Assembly (NCBI RefSeq): GCF_002906575.1
Contig: NZ_CP026309.1
Span: forward strand, 806,001-870,000
Reading direction: 5' to 3'
DNA: 64,000 nucleotides
Source: Salinigranum rubrum
GTDB lineage: Archaea > Halobacteriota > Halobacteria > Halobacteriales > Haloferacaceae
The notes under the pieces were generated by a model. The model searched no databases. It saw only the letters and a list, made by a program, of their open reading frames with translations, and was not told the DNA's origin. Below are positions 2,318 through 32,533 of the stretch, piece after piece. The stretch's first letter is position 1, and each line of letters begins with the position of its first letter. Both the position numbers and the translations under genes were made by a program.

Positions 2318-5110
2318 TCAGTTGTCGCTGCTGTCGCTGTCGTTGCCGTTACCGTTGTTACCGTTACCGTTGTTACCGCTATTTCCGTTACCGTCGTCGC
2401 TGTCGCCGTCGTCGTCGCTGCTCCCGCCGTCGCCGTCGACACCGGCCTCCTCGTACAGCGTGACGAGGTCGGCGTAGTCGAGTTGTTCGTTGCCGTTGAA
2501 GTCGAACGCCCGCGCGTTGGACTTCACGTTGCTGTTCTCGAGGTTGTTGAACAGGGTGACGACGTCGTCGTAGTCGACGCGGCCGTTGCCGTTGACGTCC
2601 TCGTAGAGACCATCGCCGTCGGGGTCCTGCGGCGCGGCGCCGCCGGCACCGATGCTGGCGGGGCCGGTCATCGCAACCCCGGAACGGGGCTCGACGTCGA
2701 TGGCGTTCCCGTTGTCGTCGTCGAGCGACGCGCTGGTGTCGATGTCCGTGGAGCCCGCGCCCATGCCGCTGAGCGTGACGGTCGCCAGCTTGAACTCGGT
2801 GCCCTCCGGCTGCATCGCCATGTTCGTGTCGGCGAACTTGAACGTCGCCGTCGCCCCCGCTTCGATGGTGGGCGAGGCCGAGAGGCCGACCGCGTCGGGG
2901 TAGGAGGCGCTCGTGATCTCGACGACGCTGGGGTCGGCGACCTCGACCGTGAACTCGCCGCCGGCGATTCCGTCGGGGACGTGCTTGGCCATGACGTCCG
3001 CCTGGACGGACTCGCCCTGACCGACGGCGACGGAACTGACGTAGACCTGGGTGTTCGGCTGGTAGACGTACAGGCAGTCGTTGGGGTACGAGCGCCGGGA
3101 CTCGTTGAACCCGTCCTCACAGCAGAGGACGCGGCCGTCTTCCATCACGTAGACGTTGTCGATGTTGCGCAGCGCGTCGTTCGCGACCTCCGCAGCGTCC
3201 GTGAAGTCCGGGCCGACGATGACCGCTTCGAGCGTCGAGACGTTGTAGTTCGCGTCGAGTTCGCCGCGATAGACCACGCCGCCGTCGACGCGGTCCATCC
3301 GGATGTCGCCCTCCTCGTCGGAGAGCGCGTCGTTGAACTCGGAGATGCCGAAGTAGACGTAGTCGCCGGGACCGGAGCCGGGTCGGCTGTCGACGCCCTC
3401 GGCCTTGTTGAACTCGATGGACGCGCCGATCTCTTTGGCCGCGGCGCGCGTTTCGAGGAACGGCACTTTGCGGAGTTCCTCGTCGACGCCGTTCCAGCCG
3501 TTCTCCTCGTACTGGGTGGCCCACTCGATGATCTCCTCGTTCGTGATGTAGTTCTGGTTGCCGTTCGCGATGACTTCGAGGTCGGCCTCCTTCAGCGCTG
3601 CTTCCGTGTCCTCGCTCCAGTCCGTGTCGGCGTGGGTTTCGAGGTAGTCGACCTGCGTGACGTCGTCGTACTCGGCGATCCACTCCTCACACTCCGCGTT
3701 GGAGGCGTGACCGAGCGGGATCCACTCGACTTCGAGGGTGACGTCGGCCGGCGAACTGCGCTCGCCGGACTCTTCGACGTTGGCTGCGTCGTTGGTGATC
3801 TTGGGCGCGTAGAGGGTGCCCTCGACGTCCATCGGGTCGTCGTAGCCGGGGATTTCCTCGTTGGCGACGAACTTGTAGATGCCCTTCGAATCGCCGTCCG
3901 AGCAGCCGTACACCGTCTTGAGGTCGTTCTGGAAGTCCGGCGCCTCCCAGGAGGCCCGGCCCATCACGTAGTACTTGATCGGTTCGACGTCTTCGGCGTT
4001 CGCCGCGTCGGAGTTGCGGAAGTCGAGTTGGTAGCCGTAGCGGTAGGGGTTGGGGTAGACGTCGCCGATGGGGTTGATACCGTTGGTGTCGCCGTTCTGG
4101 TCGACCTGCTCCGCGCCGAGGTAGTACGCGAGGAACTCGACGCCCGACAGGGCGAACGCGCCCTGGGGGTAGAAGCTCCCGCTGATGTCGCCGTTGTCGG
4201 CGTAGTCGGCGACGACGCCCGGAATCGACGCCGGGTTCGGTCGGTTCCAGAACTGACACGCGCCGGTGAGTCCGTCGCCACCGTTCTCGACGATGTCGCC
4301 GACGGTGCTCGTCAGGTTGACACGGGTGTGCGCGTAGTTCTCCTCGGAGGAGACCATCGTGTTCCACGGGCTGAGGTCGCCGTAACAGTTGATGCGGGTC
4401 CCACCCAGGTCGCGCAGGGCTTCCGTGTTCGCCATGTTGGCGGCGTCCTTGGGGTCTGCCTCCCACTCGCCGTCGTCGGTCTGGCTGATCTTGATCCGGC
4501 TGACGTTGCCGGGGCTGTTCTCCCAGTTGGTGTACAGGTACCCCTCCGTCCCCTCGTCGTTTGTGGCGACGAACTGGTTGCAGTCGGGGTTGGTCGCGGC
4601 GGCACCGTACTGCGTGCCGGCGAAGTTGTCCATCGTGATGTCGGTTCCGTCGGGCGTCTGCGTCACGCCGAAGCGCTCCGACTGACCGATGGGCTCGCGG
4701 GCCTGCGCGAGGTAGACGTACTCGCCCTCGCTGGACCGGATCTGGCGGCGCTGTTCTTCGGTCTCGGGAATCGGTAGCTCCGAGAAGTCGTCGTTGTCGC
4801 CGTCCAGGTCGAAGTGGAACCCGCTGAAGTAGCCCACTCCGGGGTTGCTGAACGGTCCGATGTTGTCCGCTGCGGGGTGCTGGTTGCTGTACAGAAGCCC
4901 CCCGTCCGCGAAGACGAACGGTCCCGTGACCTCCGCCCCGTACGCGGTGTTCGAGAAGCGCTTGAGTTCGCCCTTTACGCTCGGCGCACCCGGTGTGTCC
5001 GATTCGTCTATCTCCGTCTCGCTCGCGCTCGCGGCACCGCTGGCCACACCCACGCCGAGCGCGGCAGCCACCGATGACGCCATCAGGTTCCGTCGACTAA
5101 AATCGACCAT
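2318..5110 (-). CDS. phoX: Secreted alkaline phosphatase PhoX with cohesin-like and dockerin domains
   Basis: 930 residues from the ATG at 5110; the paralogue begins with the same MVDFSRRNLM, which decides the start over an ATG 15 bases upstream. A twin-arginine signal (SRRNLMASSVAAALG) predicts Tat export. Residues ~45-680 are a PhoX/DUF839 phosphatase: NCYGDLSPWNT at 241-251 followed by SSEENY is the family's Cys/Glu metal-binding signature, and VMGRASWEAP and CSDGDSKGIYKF are other family blocks. PhoX enzymes release phosphate from organic esters using Fe and Ca. Residues ~688-820 are a cohesin-like domain. Residues ~833-889 carry two dockerin repeats (DVNGNGRVDYDDVVTLF and DFNGNEQLDYADLVTLY), each with a Ca-binding loop. 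The last 40 residues are Asn/Gly/Asp/Ser-rich. It appears to have its own promoter in the AT-rich gap upstream. Confidence 0.9.
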   Translation of the reverse strand: MVDFSRRNLMASSVAAALGVGVASGAASASETEIDESDTPGAPSVKGELKRFSNTAYGAEVTGPFVFADGGLLYSNQHPAADNIGPFSNPGVGYFSGFHFDLDGDNDDFSELPIPETEEQRRQIRSSEGEYVYLAQAREPIGQSERFGVTQTPDGTDITMDNFAGTQYGAAATNPDCNQFVATNDEGTEGYLYTNWENSPGNVSRIKISQTDDGEWEADPKDAANMANTEALRDLGGTRINCYGDLSPWNTMVSSEENYAHTRVNLTSTVGDIVENGGDGLTGACQFWNRPNPASIPGVVADYADNGDISGSFYPQGAFALSGVEFLAYYLGAEQVDQNGDTNGINPIGDVYPNPYRYGYQLDFRNSDAANAEDVEPIKYYVMGRASWEAPDFQNDLKTVYGCSDGDSKGIYKFVANEEIPGYDDPMDVEGTLYAPKITNDAANVEESGERSSPADVTLEVEWIPLGHASNAECEEWIAEYDDVTQVDYLETHADTDWSEDTEAALKEADLEVIANGNQNYITNEEIIEWATQYEENGWNGVDEELRKVPFLETRAAAKEIGASIEFNKAEGVDSRPGSGPGDYVYFGISEFNDALSDEEGDIRMDRVDGGVVYRGELDANYNVSTLEAVIVGPDFTDAAEVANDALRNIDNVYVMEDGRVLCCEDGFNESRRSYPNDCLYVYQPNTQVYVSSVAVGQGESVQADVMAKHVPDGIAGGEFTVEVADPSVVEITSASYPDAVGLSASPTIEAGATATFKFADTNMAMQPEGTEFKLATVTLSGMGAGSTDIDTSASLDDDNGNAIDVEPRSGVAMTGPASIGAGGAAPQDPDGDGLYEDVNGNGRVDYDDVVTLFNNLENSNVKSNARAFDFNGNEQLDYADLVTLYEEAGVDGDGGSSDDDGDSDDGNGNSGNNGNGNNGNGNDSDSSDN

Positions 5111-5549
5111 GCGGGTGGACAGCATAACCGTTTCATAAAAGTATTTTATAATATATCTCTAAATTACACGTAACTCGCGGTTGCCTTACGGGGCGGTGAA
5201 CAGTACTACGCACTCGTGTGTGTCATACGTTCCATTACATAGTCTCTCACGGGAGGTTGGCCGCCCGTGTAAACAAGCTATAGAGCGCTTGAATCTGGAT
5301 TTGGTGGCGATATCGGTACGTCTGTTCGGTCGGTATCAACGACGATTCCGACCGTGTCATCCGACGTGTCTCGGCGGAACGACGGCGACATATCTGTCTG
5401 ATCGATGTCTCAGTCAAAAACATACGAAAAGTCATAAAAAGTAAAAAATTTAAAATTTATTATCTATCTACGAAGGACGGCTCCGTCGGGCCGAACTCGT
5501 CCTCGAAACGGCCCCCGTCACGGGCGATGGCGAGGCGGTGTGAACGGGG
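5111..5549. other. AT-rich intergenic gap holding a T-rich terminator and the PhoX promoter
   Basis: No convincing gene. Read on the minus strand, the first part (about 5475-5405) is a run of T-rich tracts just after the stop of the 142-residue gene, suitable as an archaeal oligo-T terminator. Close to the PhoX start, 5135-5155 contains a long A+T stretch (minus strand atatattataaaatac) suitable as the TATA element. The AT content contrasts sharply with the ~67% GC around it. The middle of the gap shows nothing. Confidence 0.55.
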
Positions 5550-5978
5550 TTACTGGAGACCCTGCTTTTCGGCTCCCGCTCGAATCTCTTCGGCACGCTC
5601 GCGTACCCAGCCCGTATACTTGTCGACCCAGTACGGTTTCTTCCCGAAGAACGACGCGACCCACAACTCGTCGTGACCCGGTTGGGTGAGCATGTACGAC
5701 GCCAGCACCGCCCGGCCGGCCGCGACGACCACCGGGGGGATGCCGCGCTCCCCGGTGCCCGCCTCCTCGAACCCGTTGACGCAGAAGTAGACGTCGGCGT
5801 ACAGCGTGGCCATCTCGGGGTCGTCGAACGCGACGCCCCGGTGCTGGGGTGCCTCGAACCGGTACCGCGGCTCGTCGTTCTCGGGGGTGGAGAGTTCGAC
5901 GACTCGAACGTCGAGCACGTACTGTTCGTACACCGATACCTGTTCCGCGCCGGTCGGCTGGTGGTCCGTCTTCGACAT
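5550..5978 (-). CDS. Conserved haloarchaeal protein paired with PhoX (copy 1)
   Basis: 142 residues, no signal peptide or membrane segment. It is clearly homologous along its length to the protein at 9034-9456: both have SVYEQYVLDVR near the start, PRYRFEAP, TLYADVYFC.NGF, GTGERG.PP, and VASFFGKKP near residue 110. Each copy lies directly upstream of a PhoX gene on the same strand, so the pair was duplicated as a unit. I do not recognise the family. One cysteine (FCVNGF) is shared by both copies. Predicted to be cytoplasmic; a role connected to phosphatase expression or phosphate use is only inferred from position. A probable TATA element (ttataaacg on the minus strand) lies near 6067-6075. 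Confidence 0.75.
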   Translation of the reverse strand: MSKTDHQPTGAEQVSVYEQYVLDVRVVELSTPENDEPRYRFEAPQHRGVAFDDPEMATLYADVYFCVNGFEEAGTGERGIPPVVVAAGRAVLASYMLTQPGHDELWVASFFGKKPYWVDKYTGWVRERAEEIRAGAEKQGLQ

Positions 5979-6184: not shown

Positions 6185-8932
6185 TTATTGGCCGCCGTCG
6201 CCGTTCCCCTCGTTGCCGTTCTCGCCGCTGGTGCCGTTGTCACCTTCGCCACCGTTGCCGCTGTTACCGTCGTCGCCGTCACCGCCGTTGTCACCTTCGC
6301 CACCGTTGCCGCTGTTACCGTCGTCGCCGTCACCGCCGTTGCCACCTTCGCCACCGTTGCCGTTGTTATCCTCGTCGCCGTTCCCGTCCTCACCGTTTTC
6401 TTCCTCGCTGCCGCTGTCACTGCTGACGCGTACGGTCCCGTCCTTCGTCTCGAATTCGATGTCCTCGGGGACTCTCTCTTCGAGCGGCGTCGTCACCTCG
6501 AGCGACGTCTCACCGGCGGCGTTCCCGGCGACCGTGACCGTCGCGATCGCCGTCTCGACGCCGTCCATCTCGACCTCCTCGACCGGGCCGAGCGGGAACC
6601 GCGCCGCCCCTCCGTCCTCGATAACGGCGGGGCTCCCCGACGCGGTCACGCCGTCGCCGTAACTCGCGTCCGTGATGGTCGCGACGGACGCGTCGGCGAC
6701 GCTGACGGTCACCTGGCCGCCGACGTTCGGTAGTTCGTTCAGCACGTCGGGCGGGTGAGAGAGCGTGAGGGCGCTCTCGGCGCTCCCGCCGACGTCGACC
6801 GCGACCGACTCCGCCGTCAGCATGGGGTTCGGCTGGTAGACGTACAGACAGTCGTTGGGGTACGACCGCCCCGACTCGGCGAAACCGTCCTCACAGCAGA
6901 GGACGCGGCCGTCGTCCATCACGTAGACGTTGTCGACGTTGCGCAGCGAGTCGTTGGCCGCGTCGGGACCGTCGGTGAAGTCCGGGCCGACGATGACGGG
7001 TTCGAGCGTCGAGACGTCGTAGTCGAGGTCGAGTCTTCCGCGGTAGACCACGCCGCCGTCGACGCGGTCCATCTGGACGTCGCCCGTCTCGTCCGAGAGG
7101 TCGTCGTTGAACTCGGAGATGCCGAAGTAGACGTAGTCGCCGGGACCGGCGTCCGAGACGCTGTCGACGCCTTCGGCCTTGTTGAACTCGATGGACGCAC
7201 CGATCTCTTTGGCCGCGGCGCGCGTTTCGAGGAACGGCACCTTGCGGAGTTCCTCGTCGACGCCGTCGTGACCCTCTGCCTCCCACTGTTCGGCCCACTC
7301 GACGATCTCCTCGTTCGTGATGTAGTTCTGGTTGCCGTTCTCGATGACCTCGAGGTCGGCCTCTTCGATCGCCGTTTCCACGTCCTCTTCCCAGTCCGTG
7401 TCGGCGTGGGTTTCGAGGTAGTCGATCTGCGTGACGTCGTCGTACTCGGCGATCCACTCCTCACACTCCACGTTGGAGGCGTGACCGAGCGGCAGCCACT
7501 CGACCTCGAGTGAGACGTCCGCGGGCGAGGCCGGCGGGTCCGCGGTGGTCTCGTCCGTGTTGGTGATCTTGGGCGCGTAGAGGGTGCCCTCGACGTCCAT
7601 CGGGTCGTCGTAGCTGGGAATCTCCTCGTCGGCGACGAACTTGTAGATGCCCTTCGAATCGCCGTCCGAGCAGCCGTACACCGTCTTGAGGTCGTTCTGG
7701 AAGTCCGGCGCCTCCCAGGAGGCCCGGCCCATCACGTAGTACTTGATCGGCTGTGGCGGGTCGCCGGCCGGGTCGCGGTAGTCGACGTGGTAGCCGTAGC
7801 GGTAGGGGTTGGGGTAAACGTCGTCGATGGGTGTCGTCGTGTTCGCGTCGGCGCTCTGGTCGTCCCGGTCGGCGCCGAGGTAGTACGCGAGGAACTCGAC
7901 GCCGGCCAGCGCGAACGCGCCCTGCGGGTACCACGCTCCCTGACTCCCGTAGTACTGGCCGATGTCTCCCGGAATGGTGGAGGGGTTCGGGCGGTTCCAG
8001 AAGTGCGCGGCACCGACGATGCCCACGCCGCTCCCCGCTTCGACCCAATCGCCGACGGTGGTGGTCAGCGAGACACGCGGATGCGAGTAGTTCTCCTCGG
8101 AGGAGACCATCGTGTTCCACGGGGTGAGGTCGCCGTAGCAGTTGATGCGCGTCCCTCCCAGGTCACGAAGCGCGTCCGTGTTCGCCATGTTGATGGCGTT
8201 CTCCAGGTCGGCTTCCCACTCGCCGTCGTCGGTCTGTGCGACGGGGATGCGCGAGACGTTGCCGGGGCTGTTCTCCCAGTTGGTGAAGAGGTACCCCTCC
8301 GTGCCCTCGTCGTTCGTGGCGACGAACTGGTTGCAGTCGGGGTTGGTCGCGGCCGCCCCGTACTGTGTCCCCTCGAAGTCGTCCATCGTGATGTCGAACT
8401 GATCGGGCGTCTGCGTCACGCCGAGGCGCTCCTCGTTGTTGTTGATGGAGTCTCGCGCCTGTGCGAGGATCTCGAAGGTGTGCTCGGCCGACCGAACGCG
8501 GCCCTGTTCCTCGACGGTCGTCGGAATCGACACCTCCTCGAAGTCGTCGTTCGACCCGCCCATCTCGAACTGGAACCCGCTGAAGTAGCCGATACCGGCC
8601 CGGTCGTACGGCGGTTCGTTCGCCTTCGTCGCCGGTTCGGGCTCCGAGTACTCGGGAACCGTGTCGTCGAACAGGTCGGGGTCACGCGTGCCCTGATAGG
8701 GGTGCTGGAGGCTGTGCAGGAGCGACCCGTCCGCGAAGACGAACGGTCCCGTGACCTCGGCACCGAAGGAGGTGTTCGAGAAGCGCTTGAGTTCGCCCTT
8801 CACGCTGGGGGCACCCTCCGTATCGGACTCGTCGATCTCGCTCTCGCTCGCGCTCGCGCTCCCCGCGACGCTCGCTCCGAGCGCTGCTGCTACCGAACTC
8901 GCCATCAGGTTCCGTCGACTGAAGTCGACCAT
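6185..8932 (-). CDS. phoX: Secreted alkaline phosphatase PhoX with cohesin-like domain and Gly/Asn/Asp tail
   Basis: 915 residues, paralogue of the product at 2318-5110. The Tat signal (SRRNLMASSVAAALG) and PhoX blocks (NCYGDLTPWNT, SSEENY, VMGRASWEAP, CSDGDSKGIYKF) are kept, so it should also be an exported metal-dependent phosphatase. It has a longer insert near residues 80-110. Residues ~700-835 form a cohesin-like beta-sandwich (LTAESVAVDVGGSAES to the ETSLEVTT region). There is no dockerin: the last ~75 residues are a low-complexity Gly/Asn/Asp/Glu tail containing a 17-residue repeat (GGDGDDGNSGNGGEGDN). It differs from its sister in exactly the module that would let it dock. It has its own AT-rich promoter (aaaaatttaaaag on the minus strand) within 40 bases of the start. 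Confidence 0.9.
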   Translation of the reverse strand: MVDFSRRNLMASSVAAALGASVAGSASASESEIDESDTEGAPSVKGELKRFSNTSFGAEVTGPFVFADGSLLHSLQHPYQGTRDPDLFDDTVPEYSEPEPATKANEPPYDRAGIGYFSGFQFEMGGSNDDFEEVSIPTTVEEQGRVRSAEHTFEILAQARDSINNNEERLGVTQTPDQFDITMDDFEGTQYGAAATNPDCNQFVATNDEGTEGYLFTNWENSPGNVSRIPVAQTDDGEWEADLENAINMANTDALRDLGGTRINCYGDLTPWNTMVSSEENYSHPRVSLTTTVGDWVEAGSGVGIVGAAHFWNRPNPSTIPGDIGQYYGSQGAWYPQGAFALAGVEFLAYYLGADRDDQSADANTTTPIDDVYPNPYRYGYHVDYRDPAGDPPQPIKYYVMGRASWEAPDFQNDLKTVYGCSDGDSKGIYKFVADEEIPSYDDPMDVEGTLYAPKITNTDETTADPPASPADVSLEVEWLPLGHASNVECEEWIAEYDDVTQIDYLETHADTDWEEDVETAIEEADLEVIENGNQNYITNEEIVEWAEQWEAEGHDGVDEELRKVPFLETRAAAKEIGASIEFNKAEGVDSVSDAGPGDYVYFGISEFNDDLSDETGDVQMDRVDGGVVYRGRLDLDYDVSTLEPVIVGPDFTDGPDAANDSLRNVDNVYVMDDGRVLCCEDGFAESGRSYPNDCLYVYQPNPMLTAESVAVDVGGSAESALTLSHPPDVLNELPNVGGQVTVSVADASVATITDASYGDGVTASGSPAVIEDGGAARFPLGPVEEVEMDGVETAIATVTVAGNAAGETSLEVTTPLEERVPEDIEFETKDGTVRVSSDSGSEEENGEDGNGDEDNNGNGGEGGNGGDGDDGNSGNGGEGDNGGDGDDGNSGNGGEGDNGTSGENGNEGNGDGGQ
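6237..6390. repeat. 51-bp tandem repeat encoding the PhoX tail
   Basis: Two adjacent 51-bp copies (starting at 6241 and 6292) are identical at nearly every base, and a third degenerate copy follows from 6343. They lie inside the second phoX gene and encode the 17-residue unit of the Gly/Asn/Asp/Glu tail. The length is a multiple of three, so copy-number change would keep the frame and only lengthen or shorten the tail. Confidence 0.85.
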
Positions 8933-9033: not shown

Positions 9034-9456
9034 CTACCCGAGTTCCCGCTCCGTCACGCCGGCTCTGATCTCGTCGGCCTGCCCGCGGACCCACTCGACG
9101 TACTTTCGGACCCGATGTGGCTTCTTCCCGAAGAACGACGCGACCCAGTCGCGGTCGATTCCGGGTCGCGTGAGGAGATACGCCGCGAGGACGGCCCGGC
9201 CGGCCCCGATGACCGCCGGGGGGACGCCGCGCTCGCCCGTTCCCTCCTCGACGAACCCGTTGGTGCAGAAGTAGACGTCGGCGTACAGCGTCGCCGTCTC
9301 GGCGTCGTCGAAGACCACTCCGACGTGGTCGGGCGCTTCGAACCGGTACCGTGGCTCCTCCGCGCCCGTCGTCTCGACGATGCGGACGTCGAGGACGTAC
9401 TGCTCGTAGACCGATTCGTGCGTCTCGTCGAGCGCTCGGTCACCGGTGTTCGACAT
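9034..9456 (-). CDS. Conserved haloarchaeal protein paired with PhoX (copy 2)
   Basis: 140 residues, homologous to the product at 5550-5978 (shared SVYEQYVLDVR, PRYRFEAP, TLYADVYFC, GTGERGVPP, WVASFFGKKP). No export signal. It starts the minus-strand phosphatase locus, and its stop is 100 bases from the second phoX, which has its own TATA-like element. The family is unrecognised. The N-terminal 15 residues are the only part that does not align with the sister protein. Its start codon is shared-promoter distance from the divergently transcribed GlcG-like gene. Confidence 0.75.
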   Translation of the reverse strand: MSNTGDRALDETHESVYEQYVLDVRIVETTGAEEPRYRFEAPDHVGVVFDDAETATLYADVYFCTNGFVEEGTGERGVPPAVIGAGRAVLAAYLLTRPGIDRDWVASFFGKKPHRVRKYVEWVRGQADEIRAGVTERELG

Positions 9457-28166: not shown

Positions 28167-28556
28167 TTACGCGCCGCCCGCGCCGCCGGGACCCATCGGG
28201 CCGCCACCGGCGCCGCCCTGCAGCATCTGCTGCAGTTCCTGCTGGAGGCTCTCGAACTGCTCCTGGACGCGCGACTCCTGCTTGTTCAGTTGCTCGACGC
28301 GGATCTCGAGCGTGTCGACGCGGTCCTGGAGGCTCTCGTAGGCCTCGTCGTACTCGGTCTCGACGAGCAGTTCGCCGACCTCGCGGTACATGACGGTGTC
28401 CTCGTCGATGTCGTCGAGCGCGTCGAGGGCGGTCTGGGCGTCGTTCAGCGTCGACTCCGCGGACTCCTTCTGGGCGGCGACCTTCTGGGCCGTCTCCTGG
28501 AGGTCCTGCAGTTCTTCGAGTTTCTCCTGCGCTTCCGGCGGTAGGCTTCCCTGCAT
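28167..28556 (-). CDS. pfdB: Prefoldin subunit beta
   Basis: 129 residues from the ATG at 28556 ([20 protein letters not shown]). Two long heptad-repeat helices (residues ~10-50 and ~75-115) flank the beta-hairpin turn around [12 protein letters not shown], the prefoldin beta layout. The C-terminus is Gly/Met/Pro-rich ([12 protein letters not shown]). Prefoldin captures unfolded protein and hands it to the thermosome. Followed by DUF3194. In other euryarchaea this pair normally lies next to Pcc1 and Rpo12; here a two-gene insert on the other strand separates them. Confidence 0.95.
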
Positions 28557-28687
28557 ACGCGAGGGGAAGGTATCCACCCTGAAAAAGCCCCGTATTCGTC
28601 CTCGTGAGTCCCGAAATCGTGTGAGTCGTTCCCGTCATCCGTTCGCCGACGACGGGTTGGCGACGGTCGTCGGCGCGTCGTTCGCGC

Positions 28688-28740
28688 GATAGAAACGTGA
28701 TAGATATACTCTATCAATACTTAACTATCTGTCACGTGAA
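28688..28740. promoter_or_regulatory. AT-rich promoter with a perfect palindrome ahead of the LGFP/SGNH pair
   Basis: TGATAGA / TATAC / TCTATCA at 28698-28716 is an exact 7-bp inverted repeat with a 5-base spacer. A further half-site (cgatagaaa, 28687-28695) precedes it and a reversed half-site (ctatctg, 28725-28731) follows, then CACGTG at 28733-28738. The A+T-rich block lies about 35-55 bases before the ATG at 28753, where a TATA box and an operator would overlap. Confidence 0.6.
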
Positions 28741-28752
28741 CCCCACCCGGGC

Positions 28753-30561
28753 ATGAAAGACATCGACGACTTCGAGGAGTTCCCGGACGAGGAGGGCGAG
28801 ACTGACCCCGGCGGCGGGCGCGGACCGGACGTCCCGTCGGGTGGGGGCGGGACGACACCCCCACCGGACGACGATCGGACGGAAGCCGAGCGAGCCATCG
28901 ACGCCAAACGTCGGCAACTCGACCGGTCGGGCCGCGGACTCGGCGCGCCGAAGACGGGCGTCGAGGACGCCGGACACGGCGGCCGGGTGCGGACGTTCGA
29001 GCGGGGGCGAATCTACTGGCACCCCGCCACGGGCGCACACGAGGTCCACGGGGGAATACTGCGGGCGTACCTCGAACGGGGCGGCCCGAACCGAAACCCG
29101 AAGACGGGGCGACGGAATCTGAAGTTCCCGACCAGCGACGAGGGGCGCGCGGCCGACGGGCGGACGCCGGTGAGTCGCTTCGAGGCCGGGTCCATCTACT
29201 GGGTCGACGGCGTCGGCGGCGTCGCCATCTACGGCGACATCGAGACGCAGTGGCGGCGGATGGGGGCCGAACAGGGTTGGCTGGGCTTCCCGCTCACCGA
29301 CCCCCACGAGCGAGGCGGCGTCACCGTCGCCTTCTTCGAGCACGGCTGTCTGTGGGCCGGGGAGGCGAGCGACGGTCGGGTGTTGTCGTACCGGTTCAAC
29401 GCCCGCCCCCTCGACGGCCGACAGACCGTCGCCGACCCGGACGAACCCGAGACGCTCTCGTTCCCGTCGCCGCTCGTCACGAGCGTCGCGGACGCGACCG
29501 TTCCCGATGCCGACATCGACATCGACATCGACGGCAGCGTGTCTGCGACGGCGCGCCCACGCGTCGACGGACCCGATGGGCCGGTCGGTCCGGACGGACC
29601 GGTCGACCCCGACGACCCGGGGCATCGGGGACCGCCGGGACCGCCCATCGACCCGGACGACCTCGACGCTGTCGACCCCGAAGTGGAGCGACAGGTCGCC
29701 GCAGTGGGGCGGGCCATCTGGCGGGACGCCCTCGTGTTGACCGCCGCGGACGGCGGCGCGCCGTCCGTTCCGCTTCGAGTCGAGTACGGCGGAGCGACGC
29801 TGGTGGACCTCGACGACACGGTCATGTTCAGACACGACCTGCGGATCGACGACCCCGCGCGCCTCGAACCGGGGGCTCCGTACGACGTGCGACTCCGCCT
29901 CCCGAACGGGCGACGGTACCGGCTGTTCACCGACGCGGTCCTCGCGCGGAGCGACGCGAGCGCCGAACGGAGCGACATCGTCTTCGTCGACGACGAGATC
30001 GACGTCGTCGGGCGCGTCCGTCTTCGGCGTCGACGCGACAACCCCGAAACCCTCCTCCTCGACACCGAGGAGGGAAACGTCGTCCTCGGCGGCGACGAGC
30101 GCGACGGCGACCTCCGAATGCGGGACGGAGCGGGGGTCGAACGCGTCCACCTCGACACGGGCGCACCGAAGGCTGTCGACCGCGAACACGTCCGTGTCTA
30201 CGTCGACGGACGCGAGGGAAACCTCACACTCGGCTCTCACGGGACGGACGGCCGCGACGGCGACCTCCGAATGCGTGACGGCGACGGTACCGAGCGAATC
30301 CACCTCGACACGGGCGCGCCGAAGGCCGTCGACCGCGAACACGTTCGGATTCGACTCGACGGCCGCGAGGGAACGCTCCTCTTGGGTGCCGACGGGGTCG
30401 CCGGGTCGGTCGAGATTCGCGACGGCGACGGGCGGAAGCGACTCGTCCTCGACGGGGAAACGGGCGACGTCCGCCTCGACCCCGCGGGCGACGGCACGAC
30501 CGAGAGTCTCCGAGCACGCATCACGGACCTCGAACGCCGCATCGCCGACCTGGAGGGGTGA
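28753..30561 (+). CDS. LGFP-repeat protein with collagen-like and beta-repeat segments
   Basis: 602 residues with no signal peptide. The N-terminal ~45 residues are disordered and Gly/Pro/Asp-rich. Residues ~60-220 contain LGFP-type repeats: LGAPKTGVEDAG with FERGRIYWHPATGAHEVHGG, then RFEAGSIYWVDGVGGVAIYG and GWLGFPLTDPHER. LGFP repeats in bacteria are associated with cell-wall or surface proteins. Residues ~270-300 are collagen-like (Gly-Pro-Asp triplets). The C-terminal third repeats a ~50-residue unit twice (DGDLRMRDGxGxER.HLDTG then APKAVDREHVR), a likely beta-helix or stalk, and ends in a short coiled coil (ESLRARITDLERRIADLEG). The architecture suggests a fibre or structural protein. 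One base separates its stop from the next ATG, so the two genes form an operon. Confidence 0.8.
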   Translation: MKDIDDFEEFPDEEGETDPGGGRGPDVPSGGGGTTPPPDDDRTEAERAIDAKRRQLDRSGRGLGAPKTGVEDAGHGGRVRTFERGRIYWHPATGAHEVHGGILRAYLERGGPNRNPKTGRRNLKFPTSDEGRAADGRTPVSRFEAGSIYWVDGVGGVAIYGDIETQWRRMGAEQGWLGFPLTDPHERGGVTVAFFEHGCLWAGEASDGRVLSYRFNARPLDGRQTVADPDEPETLSFPSPLVTSVADATVPDADIDIDIDGSVSATARPRVDGPDGPVGPDGPVDPDDPGHRGPPGPPIDPDDLDAVDPEVERQVAAVGRAIWRDALVLTAADGGAPSVPLRVEYGGATLVDLDDTVMFRHDLRIDDPARLEPGAPYDVRLRLPNGRRYRLFTDAVLARSDASAERSDIVFVDDEIDVVGRVRLRRRRDNPETLLLDTEEGNVVLGGDERDGDLRMRDGAGVERVHLDTGAPKAVDREHVRVYVDGREGNLTLGSHGTDGRDGDLRMRDGDGTERIHLDTGAPKAVDREHVRIRLDGREGTLLLGADGVAGSVEIRDGDGRKRLVLDGETGDVRLDPAGDGTTESLRARITDLERRIADLEG

Positions 30562-30562
30562 G

Positions 30563-32215
30563 ATGAGCGACACCGAGGCCGGGAGCGAGGGTCAAATCGG
30601 GACGATGGTGGCCATCGGGGACTCGGCGATGTGGGGACAGGGGCTTCGCCACGACCGGAAGTACGTCGCGCAGGTCTACCGCGCGCTCTCGGGTGGCGAG
30701 CGACTCCCCGAACGGAACGTCAAGGCGCACTCTGGGGCGGTCATCGGCGTGGCTCACGGCCGTCCGAGCCTCCGTCAGGACTACCGTGCGGAGTCGGTTC
30801 GGACCGGCGTCGAACAGGACATCGGCCCGGTCGGAACGCGCACTGGACGCCACGAGAAGCCGTACGGCGGCCTCACGATCCTCCAGCAACTCGACCGCCT
30901 CCCGTACGACTACTTCGGCCACGACCCGCCCGCGGGTCGCGACCTCAGAACGGAGACCGACCGCGCGTACGACCGCGTCGACGACGTCGACCTGGTCCTC
31001 CTCGACGGGGGTATCAACGACGTGGGGACGACGGCCGTGGTGACGCCCTGGGCCGACCACCACGACATCGACGCGGCGACGCGGCGACACTGTTACGACC
31101 ACCTGACGTACCTCGTCGAGCGGACCCGGCGGAAGTTCCCGACGGCACTCATCGTCGTGACGGGCTACTTCCCCTTTCTGAGCGACGAGTCGGACCTGAA
31201 ACTCGCCGAGTTGACGCTGGCGCTCGCGCTGGTGTTCGGCCTCCCGGTCGGCGTCGCGGCCGGACTGCTCGGCGAACTCGGGAAGGCGTTCGCCGTCCAG
31301 AACGTGCTCTTCTTCAACCGCCGGCAGCGCCACTACGTCCGCAAGGCCGTCGCGGAGGCCGACCGCGAACTCGACGGGCCGGGCGTCCTCTTCGCGTCGC
31401 CGGGGTTCGGCCCGGAAAACAGCACGAACGCCGACCGCGCCTGGCTGTGGCCCGCTCCCTCGATGGGCCACGCGACGGTCGGTGACGAGCGACACGCCGT
31501 CTGTCACGGCGGTGAGACACACGTCGACGGTTCTTTCGAGGACCTGCTCGATGGCATCGAGGGCTTCCTGGGAATGGTCGGGGTCGGCGACGACGCGTTC
31601 ATCGAACACCTGATGTGCACGTTCGCGCCGTCGTTCCACCCGAACCCCGACGGAGCAGACGCGTACGCGCGGGCGGTCCTCGACCGCTACGAGGCCCACG
31701 CCGACGCGAGCGTTCGCGACTCGGTGTCGGCGCTCGGGGACCCGCGGAATCGAGCGCGGGGACGCGAGAGCGTCCGTGCCGCGCTCGACCGGTACGACCT
31801 GCGCCCCGAGTCGGGAACCCGGGCGGCCCTCGGACACGACGTCGTCGACAGCATCCTGGTCGAACTCGTCACGGGCGACGACGGGACGGACAGCGCCGTC
31901 TTCCTCGAACTCGCGGGCGAACGGTGGCGCCTGAACACGGCACTCACGGAGGACTTCTTCGGCTCGAACGACTTCGAACCGGGCGACCGCGACCGGTTCG
32001 CGGTCGACCCGTTCTTTTCGACCGACCGGACCACCGACGACCCCATCCGCCTCGCGGAGATAGACGGCGTCACGGTCCACAAGCAGAGCAACTTCGAGGC
32101 CTCCTGGGAACTCGCCGAGTTCCGACTCTGGCTCAACGGCGTTCGGGTGTTCGAGACGACCCGTCCGCGCACGCTCACCGGGGACGACAGACACACGTTC
32201 GCGTACCCCCGGTAG
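30563..32215 (+). CDS. SGNH-type hydrolase with PLAT-like C-terminal domain
   Basis: 550 residues from the ATG at 30563. TMVAIGDSAMWGQGL carries the GDS nucleophile block, DGGINDVG the block III region, and SFHPNPDGADAYA the D/H-x2-H block with the catalytic histidine. A hydrophobic stretch at ~215-240 (LALALVFGLPVGVAAGLLGE) could contact membranes or lipid. The last ~130 residues (VELVTGDDGTDSAVFLELAG, NDFEPGDRDRFAV, FEASWELAEFRLWLNG) match the beta-sandwich pattern of PLAT/LH2 lipid- or protein-binding domains. A lipase, esterase or deacetylase acting on surface glycan or lipid is plausible. No signal peptide. In operon with the LGFP protein. Confidence 0.8.
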   Translation: MSDTEAGSEGQIGTMVAIGDSAMWGQGLRHDRKYVAQVYRALSGGERLPERNVKAHSGAVIGVAHGRPSLRQDYRAESVRTGVEQDIGPVGTRTGRHEKPYGGLTILQQLDRLPYDYFGHDPPAGRDLRTETDRAYDRVDDVDLVLLDGGINDVGTTAVVTPWADHHDIDAATRRHCYDHLTYLVERTRRKFPTALIVVTGYFPFLSDESDLKLAELTLALALVFGLPVGVAAGLLGELGKAFAVQNVLFFNRRQRHYVRKAVAEADRELDGPGVLFASPGFGPENSTNADRAWLWPAPSMGHATVGDERHAVCHGGETHVDGSFEDLLDGIEGFLGMVGVGDDAFIEHLMCTFAPSFHPNPDGADAYARAVLDRYEAHADASVRDSVSALGDPRNRARGRESVRAALDRYDLRPESGTRAALGHDVVDSILVELVTGDDGTDSAVFLELAGERWRLNTALTEDFFGSNDFEPGDRDRFAVDPFFSTDRTTDDPIRLAEIDGVTVHKQSNFEASWELAEFRLWLNGVRVFETTRPRTLTGDDRHTFAYPR

Positions 32216-32257
32216 TCGTGTCGTCTCGATACGTCCACCTCTCCGTCGGCCGGGCGC

Positions 32258-32533
32258 TCACGCCGCCAGCGAACAGACGTCCTCGGCGGTCTCGACGAGG
32301 CGAATCCACGTGTTGACGCCCGCGCGGAGGGCGACGAGGTCGCGCGCGAACACGTCGACCGCGAGGCGGTCCCCGTCGCGAGCGACGCGTGCGGTCGAGC
32401 GGTCGTCGTCGATCTCTCCCACCTCGACGGCGACGGCGTCGCCGACGACCCGAGCGACCCGCTCGTCGTCGTACTCGAAAGACAACCCGATACTGTGGGG
32501 GTAGTCGTCGTCGGGTGCGAGGGTCGGTGTCAC
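32258..32533 (-). CDS. pcc1: KEOPS complex subunit Pcc1
   Basis: 91 residues, the usual size. HSIGLSFEYDDERVARVVGD then STARVARDGDRLAVDVFARD and LVALRAGVNTWIRLVETAED follow the Pcc1 alpha/beta pattern with the conserved R-x2-x-N-(T/S) near the end. Pcc1 is the dimerising subunit of KEOPS, which makes t6A37 in tRNA together with Kae1, Bud32 and Cgi121. It follows Rpo12 by 16 bases in the operon. Confidence 0.93.
   Translation of the reverse strand: MTPTLAPDDDYPHSIGLSFEYDDERVARVVGDAVAVEVGEIDDDRSTARVARDGDRLAVDVFARDLVALRAGVNTWIRLVETAEDVCSLAA

Follow-up and report, generated by a model that had tools for sequence, protein, structure and literature searches.

Between the prefoldin beta and Pcc1 genes of the haloarchaeon Salinigranum rubrum lies a two-gene unit that we read, with roughly an even chance of being right, as an old and dispensable, laterally acquired pair of a carrier and an acyl-esterase, the esterase docking on lipid surfaces. 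On this reading, a probable lipid-ester hydrolase was acquired across domains together with a dedicated fibre-like partner by a host expected to have ether lipids, and the site of acquisition carries a fossil copy in a sister species. SGNH hydrolases with a carrier are already known as a kind; the pair stands out by its anatomy, its bacterial relatives and the fossil copy.

The unit was analysed within a stretch of 64,000 nucleotides (the window; positions 806,001 to 870,000 of contig NZ_CP026309.1), and its features are collected in Table 1. The first-pass annotation had described a plus-strand pair among minus-strand housekeeping genes, and both open reading frames were confirmed, with a single base between the stop of gene 1 and the start of gene 2; the two genes are probably co-transcribed. 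On the minus strand, the pair is flanked by prefoldin beta and DUF3194 at one end and by Pcc1, Rpo12 and L37Ae at the other, all five being putative assignments taken over from the first-pass annotation. The palindromes described in the AT-rich promoter region were recovered as well, as an exact TGATAGA/TCTATCA pair and a surrounding 12-nt pair matching at 92%; they are nested and possibly form the site of a regulator.

The pair had also been thought to split an information-processing cluster; that it cuts an operon did not hold up. The unit is divergent from prefoldin and convergent with Pcc1. Some 25-35 bases before the prefoldin start lies the box GGGGCTTTTTCAG, which is kept in most relatives examined, including those without the unit, and which by position and conservation is probably the prefoldin promoter. 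As prefoldin has its own conserved box, the unit would lie between two transcription units, with no operon cut at prefoldin.

Table 1 Features of the two-gene unit and its flanks (window coordinates).
Feature	Position	Strand	Basis or remark
Prefoldin beta (flank)	28167..28577	-	start codon probably ATG near 28557
Promoter-like box of prefoldin, GGGGCTTTTTCAG	28581..28593	-	position and conservation in relatives without the unit
AT-rich promoter region with nested palindromes	28695..28737	+	sequence
Gene 1, LGFP / beta-repeat fibre-like protein	28753..30561	+	602 aa, no signal peptide
Two LGFP repeats (residues 63-113 and about 125-175)	28939..29277	+	Pfam; PDB match to PS1
Short collagen-like Gly-Pro strip (residues about 272-303)	29566..29661	+	sequence
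Three beta-repeat units (starting at residues 441, 489 and 540)	30073..30489	+	homologous repeats in G071 (same family) and on a Rhodobacteraceae plasmid
C-terminal coiled-coil-like helix (residues 583-601)	30499..30555	+	sequence; helix in a low-confidence AF2 model
Gene 2, SGNH hydrolase with C-terminal PLAT/C2-like domain	30563..32215	+	550 aa
SGNH domain (residues 10-381)	30590..31705	+	GDSAMWGQGL with Ser21, GIND, HPN with His359; hydrophobic segment 212-240
PLAT/C2-like domain (residues 429-549)	31847..32209	+	fold comparison of predicted model
Pcc1 (flank)	32258..32533	-	convergent with gene 2, 42 bp between

The assignment of gene 2 to the SGNH hydrolases is carried by profile, alignment and fold. 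The GDSL profile (PF13472) matched with E 3e-8 and 34.6 bits against the Pfam cut-off of 32.9, and an alignment of six homologues showed block I with the catalytic serine, N152 and D153 of block III (GxND) and H359-P-N of block V to be invariant. The Asp of the block V DxxH is missing in all six aligned homologues. Some members of the SGNH family are Ser-His dyads rather than Ser-Asp-His triads, and gene 2 would likewise work with a Ser-His dyad, like 1esc. In an AF2 model of moderate quality (pLDDT 59), the SGNH domain matched known SGNH esterases, namely EstL5 (Z 15.4), Streptomyces phospholipase A1 (4hyq; Z 14.4) and the Streptomyces esterase 1esc (Z 14.1); the two Streptomyces enzymes share the fold with gene 2 but lack the PLAT-like domain, and their identity of 20-22% applies to the aligned part only. 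In the same moderate model, residues 429-549 form a beta-sandwich that resembled PLAT/C2 domains, namely the C-domain of clostridial alpha-toxin (Z 12.7, rmsd 2.1 over 109) and the domain of the lipoxygenase 15-LOX-2 (Z 11.1, rmsd 2.3 over 103). The PLAT-like domain proposed earlier was thus borne out by fold comparison and not by Pfam, where the PLAT profile PF01477 was absent among the matches at E<=1. Together with the hydrophobic stretch at residues 212-240 (hydropathy 2.2), which also occurs in the Flavobacteriaceae and Priestia homologues, these fold matches lead us to predict that gene 2 is a lipid-ester hydrolase.

Gene 1 shows all four elements described earlier, i.e. LGFP repeats, a collagen-like strip, duplicated beta repeats (residues 441-579) and a coiled-coil end. 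The two LGFP repeats scored above the Pfam cut-off (PF08310, E 8e-29) and matched the LGFP domain of corynebacterial PS1 (6swz, 6sx4; E 2e-18), with which gene 1 has the repeat module in common; this match covers residues 75-200 only, and the remainder of gene 1 as well as gene 2 have no counterpart in PS1. The beta repeats align with fibre-like proteins in G071 (E 8e-16) and on the Rhodobacteraceae plasmid (E 6e-8). Judged from its sequence, the protein may be rod-shaped. Structure prediction of both proteins gave a moderate model for gene 2 and, from a single sequence, an unusable one for gene 1 (pLDDT 36). LGFP is very rare in the class and was found in 3 of 381 genomes. Elsewhere in the order, LGFP proteins with five repeats are encoded in two genomes of a different family (L072:7460-9019 and L073:7227-8768); a signal peptide is not obvious in them, and no SGNH gene adjoins theirs.

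All full-length homologues of gene 2 that were found came from bacteria. No relatives appeared among viral contigs, queried with the single protein or an alignment, among phages, or in a plasmid search with gene 2 itself. Searches of 346 genomes of the class of Virgisporangium and 391 of the unit's own class added none beyond those known, the best three first-look candidates per genome being scored, so that weak homologues may be missed. In Streptomyces sp. S3 (L040) and Gordonia rhizosphera (L041), a member of the same SGNH family without a signal peptide adjoins a fibre-like protein. The Streptomyces homologue matches gene 2 over its full length, C-terminal part included, and is overlapped by the fibre-type gene by 4 bp; in Gordonia, the fibre-type gene follows the homologue after 53 bp. 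Compared with the haloarchaeal unit, the gene order is reversed, and the fibre lacks LGFP and has at its C-terminus a domain of the GADCAEEFD type. In Virgisporangium, the fibre-type gene lies 4.5 kb from the homologue, which, like those of Streptomyces and Gordonia, has an N-terminus without a signal peptide. The Ferruginibacter homologue carries a Tat-like signal and has no adjoining fibre-type gene.

The fibre-type family (L036:14026-15486, L040:6648-7496, L041:10081-10863, L038:2420-3520 and L054-L061) is defined by a conserved C-terminal domain of about 140 aa (GADCAEEFD...PGTV...VAGVVSGAG...GDLLTT...GHAMKA) with no Pfam match. It is widespread, occurring in Actinomycetota, Bacteroidota, Cyanobacteriota, Pseudomonadota and a haloarchaeon, and the genes next to it are often unknown or metallopeptidase-like (L057, L058).

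Two plasmid-encoded proteins join related parts in one chain. The SGNH/GDSL hydrolase WP_209152273 of Priestia shares the SGNH core of gene 2 at 28% identity over 362 aa (E 3e-27), to which structural domains of the Gly-rich and TIG types are fused; it is a single chain without LGFP and ends after SGNH block V, and therefore lacks the PLAT-like domain. WP_050070393 of Arthrobacter alpinus (plasmid NZ_CP013746) combines LGFP repeats with an SGNH/GDSL hydrolase as in the gene pair. It differs in being one chain with an apparent Sec signal and four LGFP repeats but no beta-repeat rod; no PLAT-like domain was found in it, and its GDSL part fails to align with gene 2. The earlier statement that no described system has such a combination was therefore too strong, since this fusion of LGFP to a different GDSL lipase gives the LGFP/SGNH combination a precedent. 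In the literature, we found no LGFP-plus-SGNH pair described in archaea. What recurs in bacteria, in a small sample, is an SGNH enzyme paired with or fused to a structural partner, while the structural parts vary. The recurring SGNH-plus-fibre pairing, seen in Actinomycetota, Bacillota and a haloarchaeon, is named in none of the family libraries searched.

The earlier view of a fibre-like protein with a hydrolase acting on a lipid or ester is thus supported, and the pair is absent from the site in most relatives. In the reading that we prefer, gene 1 would be an elongated carrier, its LGFP repeats binding envelope or another polymer, its beta repeats forming a rod and its coiled coil serving to oligomerise. 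Gene 2 would be an SGNH acyl-esterase with a Ser-His dyad that attaches to lipid surfaces through its PLAT/C2 domain and, given this docking, probably cleaves acyl esters of lipids in the manner of a lipase or phospholipase. The two proteins may associate physically, the carrier bringing the enzyme to its substrate. Since archaea have ether-linked membrane lipids, a lipid-ester hydrolase would spare its producer; bacterial lipids or imported or stored esters are candidate substrates. As first proposed, neither protein has a signal peptide (best N-terminal 19-residue hydropathy -0.91 for gene 1 and 0.5 for gene 2) or an N-terminal twin arginine, which suggests either an action within the cell or a release through lysis or some unknown route. 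Several observations speak against the carrier-esterase reading: the bacterial fibre-type neighbours have another C-terminal domain, lack LGFP and stand on the opposite side of the SGNH gene; there is no such neighbour in Ferruginibacter and only a distant one in Virgisporangium; the DxxH Asp is missing; and the models reach a pLDDT of only 36 (gene 1) and 59 (gene 2).

A possible, if rather doubtful, alternative is that both proteins are intracellular and have no extracellular role, gene 2 being a soluble esterase that acts on storage esters or scavenged ones and is kept at granules or membranes by its PLAT domain together with a gene-1 scaffold. This would fit the lack of signal peptides in both proteins, in the homologues of Streptomyces, Gordonia and Virgisporangium and, as far as is obvious, in the stand-alone LGFP proteins of two other haloarchaea. 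However, LGFP repeats elsewhere occur mostly in envelope-type proteins and endolysins, and the Tat-like signal of the Ferruginibacter homologue also speaks against this alternative. We regard it as unlikely that the unit is a fibre-plus-lipase weapon, in which the LGFP fibre would bring the bacteria-derived enzyme to competitors and the enzyme would cleave their ester lipids, the ethers of the producer being safe and export proceeding by an undescribed route or lysis.

The history of the unit can be followed at the prefoldin-Pcc1 site. Of 170 family genomes, only the unit's own has it intact, and one congener (G167) has a relic. The relic lies between prefoldin and Pcc1 and has lost about 3.2 kb. 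What is left of the two genes stands in the original order: from gene 1 roughly the first 20 codons (78% over 60 bp, E 6e-8), and from the tail of gene 2 two pieces (85.5% over 76 bp, E 2e-19, and 87% over 38 bp, E 7e-7). In G165, G166, G063 and G081, the prefoldin-Pcc1 gap is about 100 bp and holds no unit. A tree of the flanks grouped the genomes as ((G000,G165),(G166,G167)), where G000 is the unit's own genome, with support of 100 and 95. Given this tree and the relic at the same site, the simplest history is that the unit was present at the root of the genus, was lost in G165 and G166 and decayed in G167; a history with two separate arrivals there is possible, though more complicated. The unit is therefore most likely an old, often-lost lateral acquisition.

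The first-pass annotation had taken the unit for an insertion. Comparison of gene order did show that the flanks adjoin without the unit in relatives, but it did not bear out a fresh insertion. That a mobile element or virus inserted the unit recently is very unlikely: the distribution is patchy, with a clean, short gap between the flanks in G165, G166 and other genera, yet the relic in G167 keeps both broken ends at the same site, which would otherwise need two independent hits, and by the tree of the flanks the unit was already there at the root of the genus. Moreover, GC3 (0.85 in gene 1 and 0.89 in gene 2) matches the neighbours, in a host with DNA of 68% GC and acidic proteins, and gene 2 has no viral homologue.

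Even less credible is the proposal that the unit serves a contractile injection system or phage-tail-like particle as its cargo or fibre. The fibre-like anatomy and the lack of signal peptides would suit such delivery, a sub-threshold eCIS_core match (E 0.011) precedes the Geodermatophilaceae homologue, and contractile systems carrying DUF4157 cargoes are known in haloarchaea (PMC11566945). Against it, the unit's own genome, 98% complete, gave no match to the contractile sheath (PF04984) or to the tube (PF06841), the latter being found in 31 of 99 family genomes; eCIS_core likewise gave no match there, in a search without a positive control. The congeners G165 and G167 are tube-bearing and lack or have lost the unit, and the absence of viral gene 2 homologues also argues against this route. 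The tube genes of these congeners lie at G167:C2:746486-747983 and G165:C5:586912-588381. The gene before the Geodermatophilaceae homologue (L042:3282-4535) also contains an HEMTH motif. Finally, that the unit belongs to the L37Ae-Rpo12-Pcc1-prefoldin cluster as one of its normal, conserved parts, as its position alone might suggest, is refuted with near certainty by its absence from the cluster in the other genera examined.

Elsewhere in the window, two tandem paralogues of about 920 aa with twin-arginine N-termini (2318-5125 and 6185-8932) each adjoin a paralogous gene of about 140 aa (5550-5978 and 9034-9456).
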